A stretch of 64,000 bases of DNA from an uncultured Eubacteriales bacterium (GTDB lineage: Bacteria; Bacillota; Clostridia; Lachnospirales; Lachnospiraceae). Position numbers and translations under genes: made by a program. Position 1 is the stretch's first letter, and each line of letters opens with the position of its first letter. Under the pieces are notes generated by a model. That model saw nothing but the letters and a program-made list of their open reading frames with translations. It was not told where the DNA came from and did no database searches. The stretch is taken from contig ONHA01000002.1 of the NCBI GenBank assembly GCA_900317515.1, positions 61,194-125,193 on the forward strand. Reading direction: 5' to 3'. Below, piece after piece: positions 26,336-35,741 of the stretch.

Positions 26336-26527
26336 TTACGGGAGGCTGTTCTCATGAATAATCACAATATTGTTTTCAAGATCGATGCTTTTTATGGTCC
26401 CGATGATTTCCTTCCGGATACCGAAAAGATCGCGGAAAACAAGCTTGTCTCCCTCCACTTTCACGGAGGATGTACTGCTCATGATAAGCTTTTTATCGAT
26501 GTCAGTATAAACATTTGCAAGGCACAT
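26336..26527 (-). CDS. cooT: CooT-family nickel-binding protein
   Basis: 63 aa. The start MCLANVY is the signature of CooT, in which Cys2 of a dimer binds nickel for CO dehydrogenase maturation. The remainder (KLVFRDLFGIRKEIIGTIKSIDLENNIVIIHE) is the small beta-rich CooT fold. A GGGGG ribosome site precedes the ATG. It is the last gene of an eight-gene minus-strand operon that also has a CooC-type ATPase and an AcsB/CdhC-like gene, so a nickel delivery role is likely. No CO dehydrogenase catalytic gene is seen in the window. Confidence 0.8.
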   Translation of the reverse strand: MCLANVYTDIDKKLIMSSTSSVKVEGDKLVFRDLFGIRKEIIGTIKSIDLENNIVIIHENSLP

Positions 26528-26544
26528 GTCAATATTCCCCCTTT

Positions 26545-26814
26545 TCAGAGCAATTCAGCCGCTTTTTTAAGCTTCTCATTTCCTTCTTTGAAGCTGTCGG
26601 CCGCCTGCCTGATGAGTTCCGCCGCCTCCGCACAACCGTCTGCGGCAAGCGCTTCAGCCATCTCCCGGATCTCCTCCGCGTGATGCTCGTTGTGGCTTAA
26701 GAGGTAACCCAGCATGGTTTTTCTCTTTTCCTGTTCACTCATACCGCCGGGGAGCTCTTCCCCGTGATGATGTCCGTGCCCATGTTCATGCCTGTGTGCT
26801 TCCTCGTGTCCCAT
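26545..26814 (-). CDS. Histidine-rich small protein, possible nickel store or chaperone
   Basis: 89 aa from the ATG at 26814, which has GAGGTG six bases upstream. The N-terminus is HEEAHRHEHGHGHHHGEE, followed by a helical charged domain (LLSHNEHHAEEIREMAEAL...) that may form a hairpin. His clusters of this kind bind Ni or Zn, as in CooJ or HypB. The position between CooT and the AcsB-like gene supports nickel storage or delivery. Homology to CooJ cannot be claimed because the order of domains differs. Confidence 0.6.
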   Translation of the reverse strand: MGHEEAHRHEHGHGHHHGEELPGGMSEQEKRKTMLGYLLSHNEHHAEEIREMAEALAADGCAEAAELIRQAADSFKEGNEKLKKAAELL

Positions 26815-26824
26815 CTCAATCACC

Positions 26825-27538
26825 TCATTTTCCTTTTTTGAGAGCCTTCAGGTGCTCTTCCCGCATCCCGTCGACCTCATCACAGACCGGCTTCATGCTG
26901 CAGTGACTGCAGTCAAGGCTTAATCCGTCCATGATGTGCGTCAGCGTCTTTGTGATGTCGTCCGTCTTTTTTGCGTTCGGTACAAGCGCATTTACCAGAG
27001 CCTCGTCCGTGATGAAGATGATCCGGACATTCCTGACGCCCGGGATCTCCTTGTAACGGGCGATATAGTCCGCCCCGACTCCGGAAAATGAAATTCCCGC
27101 GCGAGCTGCCTTCGCACTCACCCGGACCTGCTCCTTGTAGGAGGTCGTCGAGACCCTGACCATGTAGCCCTTCGGAAAAACGTGATATCTCACAAACTCC
27201 ATCTTCCGGATGGCGTCATGGGCCGCCTCGTCCTCCCCGAGCTCCTCCGTGCCGAGAATGGCGATGCGGGCGAAGGCTGTGTCGGACCTGACAGTCGGAA
27301 GGTCCCGGCCGACGATCAGGATCTCGTCCTCCGAAAAGTCCGGGGCCGTCGTCACGCAGGTATAGTTGACCGAGGGCTTTCCGCTGCCTCCCAGCTCGAA
27401 CACGGCCTCCCGCTGCATGACAAGCTCGCTGCTGCCGCTGTCCGGCCAGGGCCGGGCGGAGGCGCCGCCGATGCGGCGCACATCTCCTTTCCCGATCTCC
27501 AGCATCGTCTCCTTAATGATCTTATCGTATATGTTCAT
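26825..27538 (-). CDS. CdhC/AcsB-like protein (CODH/ACS beta-subunit family, orphan)
   Basis: 237 aa. The text MQREAVFELGGSGKPSVNYTCVTT and the C-terminal CSHCSMKPVCDEVDGMREEH recall segments of the CO dehydrogenase/acetyl-CoA synthase beta subunit, but the protein is about one third of its length. The three Cys in CSHCSMKPVC could bind a metal or Fe-S cluster. It sits in the same operon as CooC, CooT and an HgdC activator and not beside acsA, acsC or acsD. It is probably a derived stand-alone domain. Assignment is from memory of the family and is moderate. Confidence 0.5.
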   Translation of the reverse strand: MNIYDKIIKETMLEIGKGDVRRIGGASARPWPDSGSSELVMQREAVFELGGSGKPSVNYTCVTTAPDFSEDEILIVGRDLPTVRSDTAFARIAILGTEELGEDEAAHDAIRKMEFVRYHVFPKGYMVRVSTTSYKEQVRVSAKAARAGISFSGVGADYIARYKEIPGVRNVRIIFITDEALVNALVPNAKKTDDITKTLTHIMDGLSLDCSHCSMKPVCDEVDGMREEHLKALKKGK

Positions 27539-27548
27539 ATCTTTACCA

Positions 27549-27716
27549 TCAGAAATTCAGGTCTTCCTTCTTGCGGTCGAACAGTTCGTTCACCCTGCGG
27601 TAAGCCCACTCCATGAGCTTCTGGTCAAGGTTCCAGAAATAAATGACGAACAGTATGCCGGTCGCCGCGGCAAGGACCTTGAACGTCTTCCAGATGATCC
27701 TGAAAAATGTTTTCAT
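27549..27716 (-). CDS. Tiny single-span membrane protein of the reductase operon (copy 1)
   Basis: 55 aa. A basic start (MKTFFRIIWKTFKVLA) is followed by one membrane span (AATGILFVIYFW) and a charged C-terminus. GAGGTGA precedes the ATG by seven bases. The plus-strand operon has a matching small gene at 35550. The two share the layout K(T/V)xF(R/K)II(W)K(T)xKVLA...V...FxFxxDxKxxxY. Presence in both operons implies a real role, perhaps tethering the soluble reductase to the membrane. Confidence 0.65.
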   Translation of the reverse strand: MKTFFRIIWKTFKVLAAATGILFVIYFWNLDQKLMEWAYRRVNELFDRKKEDLNF

Positions 27717-27745
27717 TGTCAAATCACCTCTCTTCTGCGATCATC

Positions 27746-28546
27746 TCAGGCTTTCTTCGCCAGACCTTTCTGGCGGGCATACTCTGCCGCTCCGAGAGCC
27801 CCCATGAGCTGCGGATCCGTGGACAGATCCACGACCTTCAGCTTCAGGACTCGCTCGATGGCGGCTTTCAGGCCGTCATTCTTCGCGCAGCCGCCGGTCA
27901 GCGTGATGGAATCCGTGGCGCCCGCCTTCTTCGACATGACGAAGCAGCGCTTTGCGACCGCCATCTGGATACCTGCCGCGATCTCATCCATCGGCTTTCC
28001 CTCGCCGACGAGCGTGATGACCTCGGACTCCGCGAAGACCGTGCACTGAGCCGTGATCGGGATGACGTTCTTGGCCGTCAGGGACAGCTTCGAGAACTCG
28101 GGCAGGCTCATCTCGAAGGAGCGGGCCATGGCCTCGTAGAAGCGTCCGGTACCGGCCGCGCACTTGTCGTTCATGGCAAAGTTCTTGACCGTGCCGTCCG
28201 TGTCGATGGAGATGCCCTTGATGTCCTGGCCTCCGATATCGATGATCGCCTTCACGTTCGGGTTGGTCACATGGACGCCCATCGCGTGGCAGGAGATCTC
28301 GGAAATGTTCTCGTCCGCAAAAGGAACCTTGTTTCTGCCGTAGCCGGTGCCGATCAGGTAGGCAAGGTCTTCCGACTTCTCAAGTCCGGGAACCTGGTCA
28401 AGAACTTCCTTCATCGCGAGCTCCGCTGACTCCTTCGCGTTGATCTTGCTCTTCAGGGTCGTATCCGCAACGATCTTTCCGTTCTCATCGATAATAACAG
28501 CCTTAGTGTATGTGGATCCTACGTCGCATCCGCCGAAATATTTCAT
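27746..28546 (-). CDS. HgdC/BcrA-type ATP-dependent activator
   Basis: 266 aa from the ATG at 28546 (GGAG nine bases upstream; the in-frame TTG at 28561 is less likely). This is an ASKHA-fold ATPase. The phosphate-1 motif GGCDVGSTYTKAV lies at the N-terminus, and the phosphate-2 and adenosine motifs are IDIGGQDIKG and LTGGCAKNDGL. The two Cys that hold a [4Fe-4S] cluster at the dimer interface are in NDKCAAGTGRF and AQCTVFAES. In HAD and BCR systems this protein hydrolyses ATP to inject one low-potential electron into the catalytic subunits. It follows the HgdA-like gene by 30 bp and is the only activator for both reductase pairs seen here. Confidence 0.93.
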   Translation of the reverse strand: MKYFGGCDVGSTYTKAVIIDENGKIVADTTLKSKINAKESAELAMKEVLDQVPGLEKSEDLAYLIGTGYGRNKVPFADENISEISCHAMGVHVTNPNVKAIIDIGGQDIKGISIDTDGTVKNFAMNDKCAAGTGRFYEAMARSFEMSLPEFSKLSLTAKNVIPITAQCTVFAESEVITLVGEGKPMDEIAAGIQMAVAKRCFVMSKKAGATDSITLTGGCAKNDGLKAAIERVLKLKVVDLSTDPQLMGALGAAEYARQKGLAKKA

Positions 28547-28576
28547 AATTATATTCTCCAATCTTCTTAATCTGCT

Positions 28577-30352
28577 TTACCAGGAGGCATCATCTTCAAA
28601 ATCTACGAGCGACGGATCGAGCGGCTCCTCCCGCATGACCGTGCGCATGTATTCATTTACCTTGGACCGCATATCCTTGCGGGATACCGTGCGCGGATCC
28701 ATCAGGTCGTGCTCGATCCAAATGAGCCGCACGCCGTGCTCTCTCGCCTGCTCGTCGAAGAGTCCGTTCAGTGTGGACATGTTCTTGCAGGAGACATGCT
28801 GATACATGATGACGATATCGGGCTTCCAGATCTCCACCTGACGGAAGAGCTCCGTTAAGACGTGGTCGTAGCCGCCGTTCGTGTGGCGCCTCATGACCAT
28901 GCGCTCGTAGAGGCGGGCCATGTCGCGGAGAGCTTCCTCCTTGTCCTCGGTCTCAAGCGGCTTCGTGAAGTTCAGGCTCTCCATCTCCACGAGGACGTTG
29001 ATGCCCCAGCAGTTGGCCAGCCAGTTCGAGAAGTTTGCATAGTAGTGAGCCGGCACGCTCCAGACGATCGCGCGGTGACGCATCTTGCCGCGCCAGGGCT
29101 CCTCGCGGTTCTCGTAGGCCTGCTTCATGAGCCGGTCGACCTTCTTGAAGGTCTTTAAGATGCGCGGGTCGAGGCCGCCGTCCATCTCGTAGTTCCATTT
29201 TCTGAAGAGCTCGTAGCACGGGCCGATCAGCTGCGGGTACGGAGTCTGGTTGACTTCCCATTTTTCAAGCTCGTACTTCGTCTCCTCGTTGAAGCGCTTC
29301 ATCGCTGCAAAATAGGCGTCCCAGTTCCACTTCGCACCGGTCTGCTCCTCGATGAAGCGGATGCAGGCCTTGATATCCTGAACGGCCGCGTCCATGATGG
29401 ACTCGTCCTCGTAGCGGACCGGGAAGGCCAGATGGAAGGTCGGCAGATCCTTGAAGCGCCTCGACGTGTAGGACGAGGCCATGACGGAGCCGTCGCAGGG
29501 CATCGAGCTGGAAATGAAGCACGCTCCCAGATGCGGCAGCGCATCGATGACGCAGGCGCCGCACTCCGATGTCGGAACCGGACATGTGTCCGAGGGCAGT
29601 CCGTAGGACTCAACCGCATCGATGTAGGGCATGCAGGCAAGCTGGTCGATCTCGGAGAGCAGGAATACCGGCATGAGCTGGTAGGGAATACCCGCAAGGT
29701 CCGGGAAGCCCGCCATGATCTGGGCCATGGTCATCTCGTCGAGCAGGACGATCTTCCTGGAGAGATCCGTGCTGTTGCCGCCCTTGACGTCCGCCTTCAT
29801 GAGGAGGACCAGGTTCTCGGCGACGTAACGGAAGATCGCGTAGATGAGCTCGTGGTGCATCTTGAGCGCCTTGCCGCGAAGTCCCAGCGTGTTCTTGTCC
29901 ATGAAGGAGTGGCAGCAGAAGTAGGAGATCATCCAGCGGTAATGCAGGGCTCCGTTAAGAGACGGAACGAGGTCCTTGCCGAAGGTGGCGAGGAGCATGC
30001 CCCACATCTTCGCCCACTCGTAAAAGTCGGCGCCTGTGTCCTTGATGCCTCTCCACTCGCGGCGGACGGTTGCCATCTTGCCGTTTCTATAGAGCTTGCC
30101 CAGCTGCTTTTCGCCGTTGATCATGAAGTCCTTGAACTCTTCCGGACTCATTTTCGCGAGGAGGCCTGCCTCATACTTCACTCGCTTTGCGAAGGCCTTC
30201 GCATCCCCTGCCGCATCTTTGCCGACATCCTTCCAGTCGGTCTCCTTCAGCATATCTTTGATAATGCCGCCGACCTCCTTCAGGTTTTCGGCCTGGAGCT
30301 TCAGGTTCATGTGATCCTTCATTCTGAAGAATTTCGGATTCGGGTATTTCAT
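28577..30352 (-). CDS. HgdA/BcrB-like reductase subunit (copy 1)
   Basis: About 591 aa from the ATG at 30352 with AAGGAGG ten bases upstream. It belongs to the 2-hydroxyacyl-CoA dehydratase family. Candidate cluster ligands are in DTCPVPTSECGAC, MPCDGSVMASS and HVSCKNMS. The N-terminal 100 residues are a Lys-rich helical extension not usual in the family. The C-terminus, EEPLDPSLVDFEDDASW, is almost identical in the paralogue at 33774. Family members transfer ATP-primed electrons to CoA-thioesters or, in double-cubane proteins, small molecules. The substrate is unknown. Confidence 0.88.
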   Translation of the reverse strand: MKYPNPKFFRMKDHMNLKLQAENLKEVGGIIKDMLKETDWKDVGKDAAGDAKAFAKRVKYEAGLLAKMSPEEFKDFMINGEKQLGKLYRNGKMATVRREWRGIKDTGADFYEWAKMWGMLLATFGKDLVPSLNGALHYRWMISYFCCHSFMDKNTLGLRGKALKMHHELIYAIFRYVAENLVLLMKADVKGGNSTDLSRKIVLLDEMTMAQIMAGFPDLAGIPYQLMPVFLLSEIDQLACMPYIDAVESYGLPSDTCPVPTSECGACVIDALPHLGACFISSSMPCDGSVMASSYTSRRFKDLPTFHLAFPVRYEDESIMDAAVQDIKACIRFIEEQTGAKWNWDAYFAAMKRFNEETKYELEKWEVNQTPYPQLIGPCYELFRKWNYEMDGGLDPRILKTFKKVDRLMKQAYENREEPWRGKMRHRAIVWSVPAHYYANFSNWLANCWGINVLVEMESLNFTKPLETEDKEEALRDMARLYERMVMRRHTNGGYDHVLTELFRQVEIWKPDIVIMYQHVSCKNMSTLNGLFDEQAREHGVRLIWIEHDLMDPRTVSRKDMRSKVNEYMRTVMREEPLDPSLVDFEDDASW

Positions 30353-30357
30353 GTTGC

Positions 30358-31551
30358 TCAAGCCTCCTTTCCGCCGTGAATTCTCTTGATCTCAAGGGCC
30401 TCCACAAACGCCTGGAAACGGGTCCTCAGCTGGCCGGAGTTGCGGACATTGTACGGGCGGTCGATGGAGAGGACGGGCCATCCGTACTCCTCCTTAAGAA
30501 TATGGCTGGCCAGCGGCCGCTCAAACGCCCAGAAATCACAGAATTTCATCTGCTCGTAGATGATTCCGTCCGCCCCGTATTCCCTTGCGAGGTAATCCGC
30601 GGTGTCTCTTCTCTGCTTTACCTTCTCCTCGCTCATGTAGCGGGCGCACTCGGAAGTCTTCATATAATGAAGGACGATCTGGCGGAGAATGTTCTCGTTC
30701 GGATCGATCTTAATCTCCTCCCGGCCGGGCTTGGAGCCGTAGCAGTAGCGGTCCGCCACGACCATCGCGCCTGCCTCCTCGAGAAGTCTTGTAAAATCAA
30801 GATCGTCGATCTCGGACCCCACAACGGCCACTCTGGCGCGGAACGCGGGCTTCTCGTCCGGCTCACGGCTTTTGATCTCCTCGAGCGTCTCCCGCAGCAT
30901 CGGCAGGATCAGACGCTTCGGGCAGCAGTAGGTGACAAGACAGAGCACATGGTACTCGTAGCCGGTGATCGGCGGGTTCGGGAGCTTGCGCATGTCCCCG
31001 ATCTCCGTCATGATCCGACATACCTCATTGTGCTCCTCAACCGCCTTGAGGAGGGCCTCATCGGAGGTGTCGACCCCGTACTTCTCCGTAAGAACATCGA
31101 GGAGGCGGAGCCGCATCTGGATCTCCATCTGGTCGACCGTATAGCTCTCGATCTTGTAGGGGATGTCGCAGTGGGTGATGAAGAAATTCGGCTTGTCACA
31201 GCACTTCAGTATCTCAAAGTGCTCGTAGCAGCGGTTCATCGCGGAGCACGCGTCCACACCCGCGATGCCGTCGAGGAACTGGTAGCCGCCTTCGATGGCT
31301 CTCTCGAGAAGCGAGCGGCAGTATTCGCAGGTATAATTCGACATATAGTAGGTCGCGATATCGATTGAAGATGATCTGGGCGCTCTCAGACGGACCGAGA
31401 AACAGTTGCCGACGTTTAAGAGCACTTCCGGCATGTGATAGCAGGTGTAGCCGATGGCAAGATCGCCGTCCGCCTGCGCTTTCTTTACAAGCTCGTTGTC
31501 CGCGTTCTCCAGCAGATTCTCAAATTCAATCAGGTATTTGAGATCTTTCAA
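30358..31551 (-). CDS. HgdB/BcrC-like reductase subunit (copy 1)
   Basis: 397 aa, starting with TTG at 31551. This is the only in-frame start; an AAGGAGGG site is seven bases upstream, and the paralogue has ATG at the same residue (MRDLKH). It is in the 2-hydroxyacyl-CoA dehydratase family. Cys positions shared with the paralogue are in GYTCYHMPEVLL, SNYTC and EQMKFCDFW, the likely ligands of the cluster in this subunit. The stop is five bases before the HgdA-like start, so the two subunits are coupled. The gene is 14 bp after the CooC-type gene. Confidence 0.88.
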   Translation of the reverse strand: MKDLKYLIEFENLLENADNELVKKAQADGDLAIGYTCYHMPEVLLNVGNCFSVRLRAPRSSSIDIATYYMSNYTCEYCRSLLERAIEGGYQFLDGIAGVDACSAMNRCYEHFEILKCCDKPNFFITHCDIPYKIESYTVDQMEIQMRLRLLDVLTEKYGVDTSDEALLKAVEEHNEVCRIMTEIGDMRKLPNPPITGYEYHVLCLVTYCCPKRLILPMLRETLEEIKSREPDEKPAFRARVAVVGSEIDDLDFTRLLEEAGAMVVADRYCYGSKPGREEIKIDPNENILRQIVLHYMKTSECARYMSEEKVKQRRDTADYLAREYGADGIIYEQMKFCDFWAFERPLASHILKEEYGWPVLSIDRPYNVRNSGQLRTRFQAFVEALEIKRIHGGKEA

Positions 31552-31565
31552 AAATCATCCCTCCT

Positions 31566-32330
31566 TTACTTCAAGATCGTAAGTCCTTTGAGCGCACTCC
31601 TTGCGCCCTCAAGGATCATTGCATCCCTCGGCAGGTCGAATACGCTTCTGCCCTCCACATCGTTTTCGATCTGGCGCTCATCGGTGCCGATCACGGCGAC
31701 GATCTTCATTTTCCCGATGTGATCCTCCGTGATCCTTTCCGGAAACAGCACCCGGTTCAGCACTGCTCCGACCTCGTCATACATCACCATATTCTCGGCG
31801 ACATTCTGGATCGTCTCGATGATGGAGATGCCCTTCCGGCTCTGGTCGGATACACAGAGGAGGTGGGTCACACGCTCCATCACGCGGCGGTTGATCTGCT
31901 CGATGCCCGCCTCGCCGTCGATGACCACATAGTCAAATTCTCCCGCGAGAAGGCCGATCACCTGGCGGAGATATGTGTTGATCGCACAGTAGCAGCCGGC
32001 CGCTTCCGGTCTTCCGATTGCGAGAAATGCAAACCCGTTCTTCTCCTCCATCGCCTCGAAGATCCGGAACCTTGCCTCCGCCAGTATATCCTGGGTCTCC
32101 GAGAGTCCTTCCGTCACATCCTTTGCCACCCTGAGCCGGATGTCGTCCAGCGTCTCCGTCACCTGAACGCCGAGAGCGGTTGCGAGGCCTACGGCCGGAT
32201 CCGCGTCGATCGCAAGGATCCGCGCCTCCGGCTTCTCTTCGACAAGGAGTCTTATGATCGCCGCGGAGAGTGATGTCTTTCCCACGCCTCCCTTGCCGGT
32301 CAATGCCAGGATGGTTGTCTTTCTATCCAT
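31566..32330 (-). CDS. cooC: CooC-type nickel-insertion ATPase
   Basis: 254 aa from the ATG at 32330 (AAGGAGG ten bases upstream); in-frame starts farther up fall in the promoter region. The SIMIBI P-loop GKGGVGKT is near residue 12. AIDADPA and a later VVIDGEAGIE (near residue 130) complete the nucleotide site. The motif GCYCAIN places two Cys one residue apart, the metal-binding CxC of CooC dimers that insert nickel into CO dehydrogenase. It is the first gene of the minus operon. Because no CO dehydrogenase is nearby, the client may be one of the reductase or AcsB-like proteins. Confidence 0.85.
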   Translation of the reverse strand: MDRKTTILALTGKGGVGKTSLSAAIIRLLVEEKPEARILAIDADPAVGLATALGVQVTETLDDIRLRVAKDVTEGLSETQDILAEARFRIFEAMEEKNGFAFLAIGRPEAAGCYCAINTYLRQVIGLLAGEFDYVVIDGEAGIEQINRRVMERVTHLLCVSDQSRKGISIIETIQNVAENMVMYDEVGAVLNRVLFPERITEDHIGKMKIVAVIGTDERQIENDVEGRSVFDLPRDAMILEGARSALKGLTILK

Positions 32331-32574
32331 GGGCAAAGCCCTCCTTATTATGCAATTATACATATTCAAGCATAACACACTTGTGCGCATTTTACAAGAT
32401 TGTATATAATATACGGACATAAACCCATATTTTTACACAATATCCGGTATGATACGTTTGTAATTTTCAACAAAATATGTTACTTTTAGTATATAGTGTT
32501 ATTTCATTTTTTCAGCTGCCTGCAACGTTATGCCAGACATCTCCTCTCTCAAAGAAGATGCGGAAAGGAGCCTT
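32331..32574. promoter_or_regulatory. Divergent promoter region of the two reductase operons
   Basis: An AT-rich 244-bp gap without a gene. For the plus operon, TTGTGC (32381-32386), an 18-base spacer and TATAAT (32405-32410) give a long leader of about 160 bases. For the minus operon a TATAAT lies at 32360-32355 (minus strand), 25 bases before the CooC start, with a weak -35. A CACACTTGTG palindrome at about 32376-32385 lies between them and could be a shared operator. Co-regulation of both operons is likely. Confidence 0.55.
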
Positions 32575-33777
32575 ATGAGGGATCTCAAACACATTATTGA
32601 ACTGGAGCAGCTGCTGCTCGAGGCCAACAACGACCTCGTGCGGCAGGCAAAAGCGGAAGGAAAACGGGCTTTGGGCTACACCTGCTCCTTCATGCCTGAG
32701 GTGCTGCTCGACCTGCCGGGATGTTTCTCCGTGCGCCTTCGGGCACCGAGGAGCGGCTCTCCGGACATTGCGACCTACTATATGTCCAACCGGACCTGCA
32801 TGTTCGGCCGCTGCCTCCTTGAGCGCGCGCTGGAGGGCGGTTTTAATTTCCTTGACGCCGAGATGGCGACGGAGACCTGCACCGTCACCTGCCGCTTCCA
32901 GGAGCACCTGCAGATGATGGATGTGATCCAGAATCCCGACTTTTTCTGCGAGTTCACGGATGTTCCCTTCAAGAAGAATCAGAACTCCATCGACCACTAC
33001 ACCACCCAGCTCCGGGCACACGTGCTTACGCCGCTCCATGAGCGTTTCGGGATCGATGTCTCCGACGACGCCCTCAGGGCCGCCGTCGCGGAGCACAACG
33101 AGGTCTGCCGCCTCATCACGGAGATCGGCAGCTACCGCAAGAAGGACATTCCGACCATTACGGGCTTTGAGTTCCAGCTCATCCAGCTCTCGACCCTCGT
33201 ATGTCCCAAGTACCTCATTCTTCCGATTCTCCGGGATATCGCCGAGGACCTTAAGACCCGCGAGCCAGATGCCCGCATCCCGTGGCGCTGCAAGGTCGTT
33301 CTCGCCGGTTCGGAAAATGACGACCCCTACTTCACCCAGCTCATCGAGGAGTGCGGCGCCCTGGTCGTCGCCGACCGTCACTGCTTCGGCTCTCTCCCGG
33401 GACGCGAGGAGATAGAGCTTCCCGAGGGCAAGGATGTGCTGACCGCCATCGCGGAGCACTATCTCCTCCACGAGCAGTGCCCCCGCTTCATGGAGCAGCA
33501 CACCATGCGCGAGCGCAAGGAGTATCTTGCAAATCTCGCGAAAGAGTACAAGGCAGACGGCATCATCATCGAGCAGATGAAGTTCTGTGAGTACTGGAGC
33601 TACGAGCGCACGATCGACACCATCGTGATTCCGCGCGACTACGGCATCCCGGTATGTTCCATCGAGAAGGAATATGTCAATACCGCGATCGGCCAGCTCC
33701 GGACTCGTTTTCAGGCATTCATCGAGAGCATTGAGATCAAGAAGATCCAGAAAGAAAGGGAAGGAGCGGCTATATGA
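32575..33777 (+). CDS. HgdB/BcrC-like reductase subunit (copy 2)
   Basis: 400 aa from the ATG at 32575 with AAAGGAG upstream; the in-frame ATG at 32530 lacks a site and is not conserved in the paralogue. It is closely related to the 30358-31551 product (LGYTC..MPEVLL, RLRAPRS, DIATYYMSN.TC, EQMKFC.YW). Additional Cys in CMFGRC and CTVTC differ from copy 1. It belongs to the 2-hydroxyacyl-CoA dehydratase family. The stop overlaps the start of the partner gene by four bases (ATGA), showing tight coupling of the two subunits. Confidence 0.88.
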   Translation: MRDLKHIIELEQLLLEANNDLVRQAKAEGKRALGYTCSFMPEVLLDLPGCFSVRLRAPRSGSPDIATYYMSNRTCMFGRCLLERALEGGFNFLDAEMATETCTVTCRFQEHLQMMDVIQNPDFFCEFTDVPFKKNQNSIDHYTTQLRAHVLTPLHERFGIDVSDDALRAAVAEHNEVCRLITEIGSYRKKDIPTITGFEFQLIQLSTLVCPKYLILPILRDIAEDLKTREPDARIPWRCKVVLAGSENDDPYFTQLIEECGALVVADRHCFGSLPGREEIELPEGKDVLTAIAEHYLLHEQCPRFMEQHTMRERKEYLANLAKEYKADGIIIEQMKFCEYWSYERTIDTIVIPRDYGIPVCSIEKEYVNTAIGQLRTRFQAFIESIEIKKIQKEREGAAI

Positions 33778-35507
33778 GCGAACGCACAATTAAGGAGACA
33801 GCGGCCGAGCGCGCAAAAGCTGCAAAAAATGCCGCAAAGGCAGCAGCTTCAAAGCTCCGGCACGCCGATTACAAAAAAGCTGCCGAATCGGTCCGTGAGA
33901 AGGCAAGGACTTTTGACATCAAAAAGGCCGCCCGGGATTTCTGGTACGGCAAGCCCCACGAGGAGAGACGGCTCGGCGACCTCTACATCGGCAACACCGG
34001 CCTCTACAAGCACCGTGAGTGGCGCGGCTTCAAGGACACCATGTACTATTTCCATATGATCTGGCTTTACAACTACGTTCATATGGTGACCGACATCCTC
34101 TCGGGCGACGATCCCCTTTCCTTCTTTGCGGGAACCATGCGCTACCGCTGGATGGGGCAGACTTATCTCACCGTCATGCACTGGTTCGACCGCGGACTTG
34201 AGGGCCTGCGCGGCCCGGCTCTCGCGGCCTCCGCCTGGCACTACCGCGGCATGACCAATGAAACCATCCGCCAGTTCATGCGCATGTTCGCTGCCGACAA
34301 GAAGCTTCACGGCGGCAAGGAAAACAAATACTGGAAGAACACCATCGCCCACGATGAGACCGTCTCCGGCAACATCTTCTATCCCTGGAGAGACGTCATG
34401 GATGATGTTGCACTGCAGATGATCCCCTATTTCGTCACCTGCCACGTCAACAACCATACCGTCTTAAACTACATCGATGCGATGCAGTCCATCGGCCTCC
34501 CGGCGGATCCCTGCCCGATGTGCCAGGCCGAGGCCGGCATCTTCGTGCTGGATGACTACCCGGATTACAGCCCGGTCATGGTCACCTCCAACGAGGCCTG
34601 CGACGGCTCCGTGGCGACCTCCGTCATCCAGGACTGGTTCCTGAACCGCCCGCTCTTTGCGATGCCGCAGCCGATGCGCTTCGACGATCCGCTGGTCCAG
34701 AAGCACTGCCAGGAGGAGATCGAGGAGTGCTGGAAGTTCGTCGAGGAGCAGACCGGCCATCCGTTCAACTGGGAGGAGTACAAGAAGCATGCGGAGAGCT
34801 TCAACAAGCTCACCGACTTCGAGCATGAAAAATGGGACGTCGCCGCCAACACCCCCTACTACCCGATCAACGGTGTCGCCCAGGCGCTCTACCGCATCTA
34901 CTATTCCCAGGACGGCGACCGCCCGATCTGGCATTTCGTTGATGCGCATGTGAGAAAGATCATGAACAAGACGGTCAAAAACAAGATCGTGACCTTCCCG
35001 AAGACCCGCCACCGCGCGATCGCGTGGAGCTGCGCACCGCTCTACTACTCCAACTGGTGCACATGGGCCTATAACTGCTGGGGCATCAACACGATCATCA
35101 ACATGGACTCCCTGATGTTCGACCAGTACCTCCGCACGGACACCTACGAGCACGCGCTCGAGGACCTCGCGACCTTCAACGAGCTCGCTCCGATGCGCTC
35201 CATGGCGGTCGGCGGCCACGAGCATATTTTCCGCCTCTGGGAGTTCATGGAGAAGTTCAACTGCGATTTCGTCGTCATGTACGACCAGCTGCAGTGCAAG
35301 GGCATGCAGGGCATCCACGGCATGTTCGAGGATGAGTTCAGAAAGCGCAACATCCACGCGGTCTGGGTGCCGCACGCGCTTCCGGACAAGCGCACCGTCT
35401 CCCGCAAGGAGATCCGCAAGATCATCAGCGACTACATGTACACGGTCATGCACGAGGAACCGCTCGATCCGTCGCTGGTCGACTTCGACGATTCCGAATC
35501 CTGGTAA
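33774..35507 (+). CDS. HgdA/BcrB-like reductase subunit (copy 2)
   Basis: 577 aa. The N-terminal 60 residues are Ala/Lys-rich and helical (ERAKAAKNAAKAAASKLRHADYKKAAESV). The catalytic part has the same Cys landmarks as copy 1: DPCPMC, NEACDGSVATS and QLQCKGMQG. It shares NCWGIN and the C-terminal EEPLDPSLVDFDD. It is a member of the 2-hydroxyacyl-CoA dehydratase family. Its operon has no activator gene, so it probably depends on the HgdC-like protein of the divergent operon. It could form a mixed or second reductase with a different substrate. Confidence 0.88.
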   Translation: MSERTIKETAAERAKAAKNAAKAAASKLRHADYKKAAESVREKARTFDIKKAARDFWYGKPHEERRLGDLYIGNTGLYKHREWRGFKDTMYYFHMIWLYNYVHMVTDILSGDDPLSFFAGTMRYRWMGQTYLTVMHWFDRGLEGLRGPALAASAWHYRGMTNETIRQFMRMFAADKKLHGGKENKYWKNTIAHDETVSGNIFYPWRDVMDDVALQMIPYFVTCHVNNHTVLNYIDAMQSIGLPADPCPMCQAEAGIFVLDDYPDYSPVMVTSNEACDGSVATSVIQDWFLNRPLFAMPQPMRFDDPLVQKHCQEEIEECWKFVEEQTGHPFNWEEYKKHAESFNKLTDFEHEKWDVAANTPYYPINGVAQALYRIYYSQDGDRPIWHFVDAHVRKIMNKTVKNKIVTFPKTRHRAIAWSCAPLYYSNWCTWAYNCWGINTIINMDSLMFDQYLRTDTYEHALEDLATFNELAPMRSMAVGGHEHIFRLWEFMEKFNCDFVVMYDQLQCKGMQGIHGMFEDEFRKRNIHAVWVPHALPDKRTVSRKEIRKIISDYMYTVMHEEPLDPSLVDFDDSESW

Positions 35508-35549
35508 AAAAAGATGCGGCCCCGCAGGCGGAGCCGGAAAGGAGAATTC

Positions 35550-35741
35550 ATGTTAAAAGTCTTGTTCAAGATTATCAAGGTCCTGGCCGTCGTCTGGGTC
35601 GTGCTCTTCACGGTCTTCTTCTTCGACCTCGACGGGAAGTTCCTCTACTATGTGTGGGAGCCGATGATGATCAAGCGGTTCGACAATATGAAGCGTCCGG
35701 ATCTCACCGGGACACCTTACGAGAGGAAGGAGCCGGTCTGA
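35550..35741 (+). CDS. Tiny single-span membrane protein of the reductase operon (copy 2)
   Basis: 63 aa from the ATG at 35550 with AAAGGAG upstream. A basic amphipathic start (MLKVLFKIIKVLA) is followed by a span (VVWVVLFTVFFF), then DLDGKFLYYVWEPMM and a polar tail. It matches the arrangement of the 27549-27716 product. It is the last gene of the plus operon, before a terminator. Confidence 0.7.
   Translation: MLKVLFKIIKVLAVVWVVLFTVFFFDLDGKFLYYVWEPMMIKRFDNMKRPDLTGTPYERKEPV

Follow-up and report, generated by a model that had tools for sequence, protein, structure and literature searches.

The window analysed here is a stretch of 64,000 nt of contig ONHA01000002.1 (assembly GCA_900317515.1), from an uncultured Eubacteriales bacterium (Lachnospiraceae). 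It contains two divergent gene clusters, each of which encodes a pair of proteins (subunits A and B) related to benzoyl-CoA reductase (BCR) and 2-hydroxyacyl-CoA dehydratase (HAD). One of the clusters also encodes an activase (Act) and homologues of CooC, CooT and acetyl-CoA synthase (ACS), the last in a truncated form designated CdhCl. The features of the locus, in window coordinates, are as follows.

26336..26527, minus strand: CooT-like nickel-binding protein (by family), 63 aa; PF10133 E 1.3e-16, 61 bits, Cys2 kept
26545..26823, minus strand: HisR, small His-rich protein; CooJ-like by composition alone, no family over cut-off
26825..27538, minus strand: CdhCl, truncated ACS-like protein, 237 aa, ACS middle domain and CxxCx5C; ACS models, PDB fold matches
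27549..27722, minus strand: TM1, small protein with a single hydrophobic stretch, 57 aa; TM2 paralogue, in the core of 56/56 loci with room (defined below)
27746..28561, minus strand: Act, BcrA/HgdC-type ATP-dependent activase, 271 aa; TIGR00241 over cut-off, MbdQ the best PDB match
28577..30361, minus strand: B1, catalytic-type HGD/BCR subunit with a long N-terminal helical extension, 594 aa; HGD-D E 2e-35, fold
30358..31551, minus strand: A1, double-cubane-type HGD/BCR subunit, 397 aa; HGD-D E 2e-91, BzdN E 9e-27
31566..32330, minus strand: CooC-type ATPase, 254 aa; 3kje E 6e-15, start set at ATG 32330 behind AGGAGG
32331..32574, no strand: divergent intergenic region, 244 bp, between the cooC and A2 starts
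32575..33777, plus strand: A2, second double-cubane-type subunit; HGD-D E 7e-84, BzdN E 4e-27, open reading frame (ORF) opens at 32530
33774..35507, plus strand: B2, second catalytic-type subunit, 577 aa; HGD-D E 1.6e-26, C247, C276, C508
35514..35741, plus strand: TM2, small membrane-type protein, TM1 paralogue; 29% to TM1, E 5e-5

The minus-strand genes follow one another in the order cooC, A1, B1, act, TM1, cdhCl, hisR and cooT with intergenic gaps of -4 to 23 bp, and the plus-strand genes A2, B2 and TM2 with gaps of -4 and 6 bp. A first-pass annotation of this DNA had described two paralogous pairs, an activator, CooC, CooT, a His-rich protein and an ACS-like domain, and all of these genes were found to be present and conserved. 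The divergent gap of 244 bp that it gave holds for an A2 start at ATG 32575, preceded by AAGGAG; measured from the longer ORF start, the gap is 199 bp. In the bacterium's own genome (2.72 Mb, 94% complete) there are four HGD-D matches at E ≤ 0.001, every one of them in this locus. A rhomboid-family protease gene (PF01694; 35821-36456, minus strand) adjoins TM2, and a similar ORF was seen by eye at L075:425-997 (L and G numbers refer to loci and genomes).

Conservation in close relatives

The locus was compared with 80 loci scanned from 193 relatives, with B1 identities of 69-96%. These loci come mostly from rumen and gut metagenome genomes labelled Lachnospiraceae, Oscillospiraceae, Butyrivibrio, Solobacterium or Mogibacterium, together with some named strains, and the carriers include named Butyrivibrio strains that are not metagenome-labelled (L057, L061-L065). 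Room was taken to mean over 2.6 kb of sequence before B1 and over 2.1 kb after it, and the core order CooC-A1-B1-Act-TM1-CdhCl was present in 56/56 of the loci that had it, one activase reading as two pieces. The remaining 24 loci are cut by contig ends, and 3 of them show all six core genes.

Genes outside the core were counted in the 41 long loci, which extend at least 5.5 kb on either side of the core: A2 or B2 was found in 36, CooT in 30, HisR in 29 and an Old Yellow Enzyme (OYE) gene in 33, bearing in mind that small genes may escape BLAST. As for the co-occurrence of both pairs with CooC and CooT, which the first-pass annotation had suggested looking for, CooC was present throughout (56/56), and the second pair (36/41) and CooT (30/41) in most loci. 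The second pair is frequent but optional. Its position and strand vary between loci, which suggests selection for the set. The earlier idea of two modules sharing one activator is lineage-specific: G260, G371, G388 and G278 have a single pair in the 12-20 kb taken, the rest of these genomes not having been searched for pairs, and in L075 a second activase gene lies next to A2-B2. Adjoining these L075 genes is a gene for a CsoR/RcnR-type metal-sensing repressor with a His-rich N terminus (PF02583, L075:16270-16602). An HtpG/Hsp90 gene recurs in 12 loci, including L073:4410-6299, where PF00183 was checked, and in some (L073, L103) it sits between A2-B2-TM2 and the CooC operon.

The B1 tree groups sequences by family; three or more label changes must be assumed for Lachnospiraceae and likewise for Oscillospiraceae, without this proving gene transfer. 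A tblastn search with B1 gave no match in 72,556 plasmid records.

The reductase pairs, their activase and the neighboring ene-reductases

It was found that A1 and A2 are 50% identical over 397 aa and B1 and B2 34% identical over 569 aa, and that all four proteins exceed the Pfam cut-off for HGD-D. BzdN was the best solved-structure match of both A1 (E 9e-27) and A2 (E 4e-27). The [8Fe-9S] ligands of BzdN are Cys36/73/100/263/293/327 and the [4Fe-4S] ligands of BzdO are Cys95/128/380, as given in PMC11971306. In our alignment, the six BzdN ligands are matched by A1 residues C37/75/102/270/302/338, and these six cysteines are kept in 78 A1 rows and 48 A2 rows (conservation was counted over aligned rows having a letter at the position, the window being included for A1 and A2). 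B1 C260/C289/C525 are kept in 82 rows and B2 C247/C276/C508 in 45 rows, in the three-ligand pattern of BzdO. The claim that both pairs carry the same Cys landmarks was thus confirmed, with six in A1/A2 and three in B1/B2 aligned and kept, and the motif EEPLDPSLVDF noted near the C terminus is present in both B1 and B2.

Direct alignments of B to the double-cubane cluster protein (DCCP) and MbdO were short and weak (E 0.008 and 0.02). An AlphaFold2 (AF2) model of B1, with a mean confidence score (pLDDT) of 82.2 and a long, mostly helical N-terminal extension, gave 20 PDB fold matches at E ≤ 1e-3, all of which were chains of HadBC, BzdNO, MbdON or DCCP, with HadB first. At the position of the BzdO acid/base residue His131, three residues past the second ligand, B1 has no His and reads C289-D-G-S; HadB has Ala there (PMC11971306). 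A further cysteine, C451 of B1, is invariant in B1, B2 and a third pair type (see below), though not in more distant B subunits.

The activase was over the NCBIfam cut-off (TIGR00241, 214.5 bits vs 125.4), with MbdQ the closest PDB entry (E 4e-61), followed by HadI and HgdC, and 193 of its 271 positions are at least 97% invariant (68 rows). The small membrane partner that each pair was said to share is borne out by the TM1/TM2 match (29% over 51 aa, E 5e-5).

Because the six BzdN and three BzdO ligands are kept, each pair resembles a dimer of class I BCR type, A providing the double-cubane electron store and B the catalytic cubane with three Cys. The sequences support these cluster ligands as well as the fold and the activase, and the low-potential, ATP-driven reductase predicted in the first-pass annotation is well supported by all three. 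The curated BCR, HAD and DCCP equivalog models were all under cut-off (the best BCR model for A1 was bzdN, 101 bits vs 453.8; the DCCP model NF040772 gave 136 and 123 bits for the A subunits, under its 350-bit cut-off), and therefore the pairs are not filed in any of these families.

By sequence and fold matches, the locus shares with the class I BCRs BzdNO(PQ) and MbdONPQ the six-Cys double-cubane subunit, the three-Cys catalytic subunit and the ATP-dependent activase. It differs from them in having one activase gene, whereas BCR has two, and in adding the long N-terminal extension of B, the membrane peptides, CooC, CdhCl and CooT. The six cysteines of the A subunits are common to DCCP (NF040772), but the system here is heteromeric and has a catalytic-type B subunit. 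HadBC, a 2-hydroxyisocaproyl-CoA dehydratase, is similar in fold and activase, whereas A at this locus keeps the double-cubane ligands and no CoA-transferase was recognized near the locus by eye, unlike the dehydratase setting.

An OYE/FAD flavoenzyme gene (query 687 aa; 54-100% identity) lies at most 2 kb downstream of CdhCl in 32 of the 49 loci with room for it, and a different OYE (28-31% identity) lies just upstream of CooC in 10/65 loci. The closest curated models of the flavoenzyme were bilirubin reductase and BaiCD, both under cut-off, and its best solved relative was NCR (6qkg, E 3e-57), which we take to be 2-naphthoyl-CoA reductase. Directly after the OYE gene, a gene for a LarA-family lactate racemase was seen at L030:16344-17621 (Pfam checked in L030), with homologues in L029, L031 and L052; the LarA lactate racemases are a nickel-enzyme family. 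In L133, genes for a ferredoxin, an aldehyde ferredoxin oxidoreductase and an alcohol dehydrogenase precede cooC. The place of OYE is taken in L135 by a flavin/Fe-S gene of IsrA-like architecture together with HypA, and in L110 two genes of this architecture and HypA follow an A/B pair of the third type, the label referring to the architecture and the HypA neighbor and not to IsrA sequence. According to PMC10134865, IsrA is putatively an isoprene reductase and has HypA/HypB as nickel chaperones. Its operon combines a flavin/Fe-S reductase and nickel chaperones and has no hydrogenase to match, and a similar architecture stands beside the core in L135; a BCR/HAD pair, activase, CooC and CdhCl are not named in the parts of that paper drawn on here.

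The gene neighborhood and the ligands together decide against an ordinary 2-hydroxyacyl-CoA dehydratase of amino-acid fermentation, an explanation that we consider improbable and have rejected. It would account for the family membership, for HadB as the top fold match and for an activase near HadI and HgdC, and a 3-hydroxyacyl-CoA-dehydrogenase-like ORF was seen by eye near the G886 locus (L193). However, HAD enzymes have a [4Fe-5S] remnant instead of a double-cubane (PMC11971306), whereas A has the six double-cubane ligands. The partners are CooC, CdhCl and OYE, and the own genome has no other HGD gene. The first-pass annotation had named CoA-transferase and dehydrogenase neighbors as the sign of such an enzyme: among neighbor clusters present in at least 4 of the 80 loci, no CoA-transferase or 2-hydroxyacid dehydrogenase was recognized by eye (no HMM was used, and antisense ORFs may mask genes), and it is OYE genes that recur most.

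CooC, CdhCl and a possible link to nickel

The best PDB match of CooC was CooC itself (3kje, E 6e-15), with the GKGGVGKT Walker A and CYC motifs aligned, and C113 and C115 are kept in 71 rows. A mere MinD/ParA protein was rejected, as the NCBIfam matches are weak and generic, whereas the best PDB match is CooC. CooT was over the Pfam cut-off (PF10133, 61 bits vs 27) and has Cys2, a residue implicated in nickel binding (PMC6006190), in all 33 rows. For HisR, Pfam and NCBIfam scans gave no family over cut-off, and H16, H44 and H48 are kept across 24 aligned rows. The locus shares the CooC and CooT families and a His-rich protein with the cooC, cooT and cooJ accessory genes of carbon monoxide dehydrogenase (CODH), but the client here appears to be a BCR/HAD-type reductase, and 30 of 35 tested genomes had no CODH over cut-off.

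CdhCl of the window was under the model cut-offs; however, among the 37 family members, 36 gave matches to ACS models with E ≤ 0.01 (the best being 3e-14), and the CdhCl profile also retrieves long ACS genes. The AF2 model (pLDDT 85.9) gave 23 PDB fold matches at E ≤ 1e-3, all of them ACS. As judged from these sequence and model matches, CdhCl is homologous to the middle (A2) domain of ACS. It shares with AcsB/CdhC this domain and the first (three) A-cluster cysteines, C210, C213 and C219, which are kept in 64 rows; it differs in lacking the N-terminal domain and the CGC nickel site and in having about one third of the length. In an alignment with real ACS, the C-x2-C-x5-C of CdhCl stands against the ACS motif C-x2-C-x8-C-x9-C, and the ACS of L139 has CGC at 574-576. 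The Cys tail of CdhCl was poorly predicted (pLDDT 47-58).

CdhCl could instead be a small Ni/Fe-S redox or acyl-binding subunit that the activase and A/B keep super-reduced, in the manner of RACo or of the MCR activation complex. The ACS fold and three invariant cysteines would fit such a role, ATP-driven activation of corrinoids and MCR is on record, and CooC/AcsF-type proteins serve ACS in acetogens. We nevertheless regard it as unlikely: the nickel-binding CGC is missing, the Cys tail is of low confidence and both A and B keep catalytic-type ligands.

More distant relatives were sought with the CdhCl profile. Among 391 genomes of the class, 12 matched, namely 7 short CdhCl and 5 ORFs of at least 537 aa taken as ACS, and among 398 genomes of the phylum there were 58, with short CdhCl in the own genome and G622 and the other matches being ORFs of at least 396 aa, mostly over 700 aa. 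In G622's class 77 of 97 genomes matched, 6 with short CdhCl, and in G260's order 5 of 67 matched, 4 of them short. Fourteen short-CdhCl loci were opened besides the window, which is the fifteenth. The activase gene is beside CdhCl in 14/14, sometimes with a TM gene between, and where the contig reaches that far HGD genes (12/12) and CooC (13/13) are present. In a divergent comparison that included the window, the CxC of CooC was found in 8/8 and the CxxCx5C of CdhCl in 9/9, and the six A and three B ligands were kept in 7 of 8 compared systems.

In the three loci of G622 type with sufficient length (G622, G877 and G886), the gene order is two acyl-CoA dehydrogenases, an unknown protein, A, B, two activases, CdhCl and CooC. 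The best model for the G622 acyl-CoA dehydrogenases was cyclohexane-carbonyl-CoA dehydrogenase, under cut-off, and the protein between them and the reductase in loci of this type has 594 aa and is of unknown family (L159:14687-16471). At the G886 locus, a second set of A, B and activase comes directly after the first set and CooC (L193:11300-14706), and the 3-hydroxyacyl-CoA-dehydrogenase-like ORF mentioned above is further on (L193:16396-17259, by eye).

Within the genus, 8 of the 10 genomes that have a B gene also have CdhCl, whereas none of the 27 lacking B does (Fisher p 1.2e-6, with relatedness disregarded); the 2 B-positive genomes without CdhCl are 71% and 78% complete, and their contigs end inside B1. 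The third A/B pair type, in which B is about 80 N-terminal residues shorter, occurs in five genus stretches (L109, L110, L111, L112, L113). G002 has only this pair type, with an activase about 2 kb away and CdhCl on another contig.

CODH was over cut-off in 5 of 35 tested genomes and never near the core. It was detected in 1 of 10 genomes of the genus (none in the own genome; G035 with three weak matches below cut-off), in 0 of 18 other carriers (one weak match) and in 4 of 7 distant carriers. Of the positive genomes, the four drafts have it on another contig, and G260, a complete genome, has it at a distance of roughly 0.4 Mb or more from the core. The concern that CooC and CooT might be tied to a CODH elsewhere was thus not borne out. 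CooT without CODH is already on record, since 111 CooT homologues are reported and 85 CooT-containing proteomes have CODH (PMC6006190).

That CooC, CooT and HisR serve CODH or a [NiFe]-hydrogenase elsewhere and stand here by chance is very improbable. Nine of 12 carriers, the own genome among them, gave a match to the [NiFe]-hydrogenase large subunit that was over cut-off but spanned just the first 70 of 508 positions. However, the core order is kept in 56/56 loci, the CooC/CdhCl couple recurs in distant BCR-like loci, the own genome has no CODH match, and in R. rubrum CooC, CooT and CooJ reportedly do not mature the Coo hydrogenase (PMC6006190). Chance linkage to CODH was rejected, given the 56/56 core order and a CODH that is rare and distant. 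The sequences likewise support the derivation of CdhCl from ACS and the conservation of the linkage.

Proposed function and significance

We propose, as a probable rather than a secure reading, that the locus encodes an ATP-driven double-cubane reductase that is matured by CODH/ACS-type metallochaperones, most likely with nickel, and that works with an ene-reductase. Hydrolysis of ATP by the activase would drive electrons supplied by a ferredoxin-type donor onto the [8Fe-9S] double-cubane of A, and from there they would pass to the three-Cys [4Fe-4S] site of B, where the substrate would be reduced. TM1 and TM2 would probably dock or anchor the pairs. CooC and CdhCl, aided by CooT and HisR (HypA in L135), would assemble or load a metal center of the reductase, most likely with nickel. 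The product would probably be reduced further by the OYE-type ene-reductase, which adjoins the core in many relatives and is unlinked in the own genome. We infer the electron path, the anchoring by TM1 and TM2 and the client of CooC and CdhCl. As for the nickel-type maturation suggested in the first-pass annotation, its genomic association is strong (the 56/56 core, the distant loci and the genus), whereas nickel itself we only infer.

Several observations weigh against this proposal. All nine known cluster ligands are kept, and so there is no obvious empty nickel site; the CGC nickel motif is absent from CdhCl, whose chain stops 18 residues past the third motif Cys; and in about one quarter of the long loci CooT or HisR went undetected (CooT seen in 30/41, HisR in 29/41). 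CooC is part of a larger ATPase family with Fe-S roles. In the divergent L194, three A ligands and one B ligand are missing in the alignment. A tblastn search of the L109-L113 stretches did not find CooC or CdhCl, so that the pairs have relatives that lack an adjoining CooC/CdhCl couple, and the hydrogenase match in the own genome and in 8 of 11 other carriers means that nickel may serve elsewhere. As to the ene-reductase, the single full-length OYE copy of the own genome (60% identity) is unlinked, and OYE was not seen in 8/41 long loci.

Some of these points would also fit CooC and CdhCl as Fe-S (double-cubane) assembly factors, with CooC NifH/Mrp-like, CdhCl an [8Fe-9S] scaffold and the product an Fe-only BCR-like enzyme. 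The nine kept ligands with no extra site obvious, the Fe-S-type cysteines of CdhCl without CGC, and the long loci in which CooT and HisR went undetected would all be accommodated by this explanation, which we hold doubtful but weightier than the other alternatives. Against it stand the CxC motif of CooC, the recurrence of CooT and the His-rich protein, and HypA in the L135 operon. In addition, E. coli with a bzdNO plasmid yielded BzdNO containing both clusters (PMC11971306), and a dedicated CooC/CdhCl couple therefore argues for more than the usual clusters.

The reductase may feed, or act beside, the C=C reduction of a hard substrate, which may be conjugated, aromatic or of enoate type. Fatty-acid biohydrogenation (Butyrivibrio) was considered, as speculation, and one literature search showed no gene for it. 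Rumen quinate/shikimate or cinnamate reduction is known chemistry for which the analysis gave no support. More tentatively still, and on balance we would not expect it, these proteins might be the first Ni-Fe-S members of the BCR/HAD/DCCP superfamily, with CooC and a severed ACS domain placing nickel in the double-cubane or active-site cubane for the reduction of unactivated C=C bonds or aromatics in gut bacteria.

No account of this gene set was recognized in the open-access literature searched, and in a survey of CODH neighborhoods (PMC13056359) the words 'dehydratase' and 'benzoyl' are absent, as far as its main text goes. The locus is real and conserved, and it apparently represents a hitherto undescribed variant among BCR/HAD reductases, whose defining set is CooC, A, B, activase and CdhCl. 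We know of no nickel member of the BCR/HAD/DCCP superfamily, nor of an ACS fragment that serves another enzyme. In two classes of the phylum, CooC and a truncated ACS accompany BCR-like reductases; such a couple would be a new maturation principle, and because named Butyrivibrio strains are carriers, the question looks directly testable. For rumen and gut bacteria the locus may represent an electron sink, and it may also offer mild enzymatic routes for reducing hard substrates.

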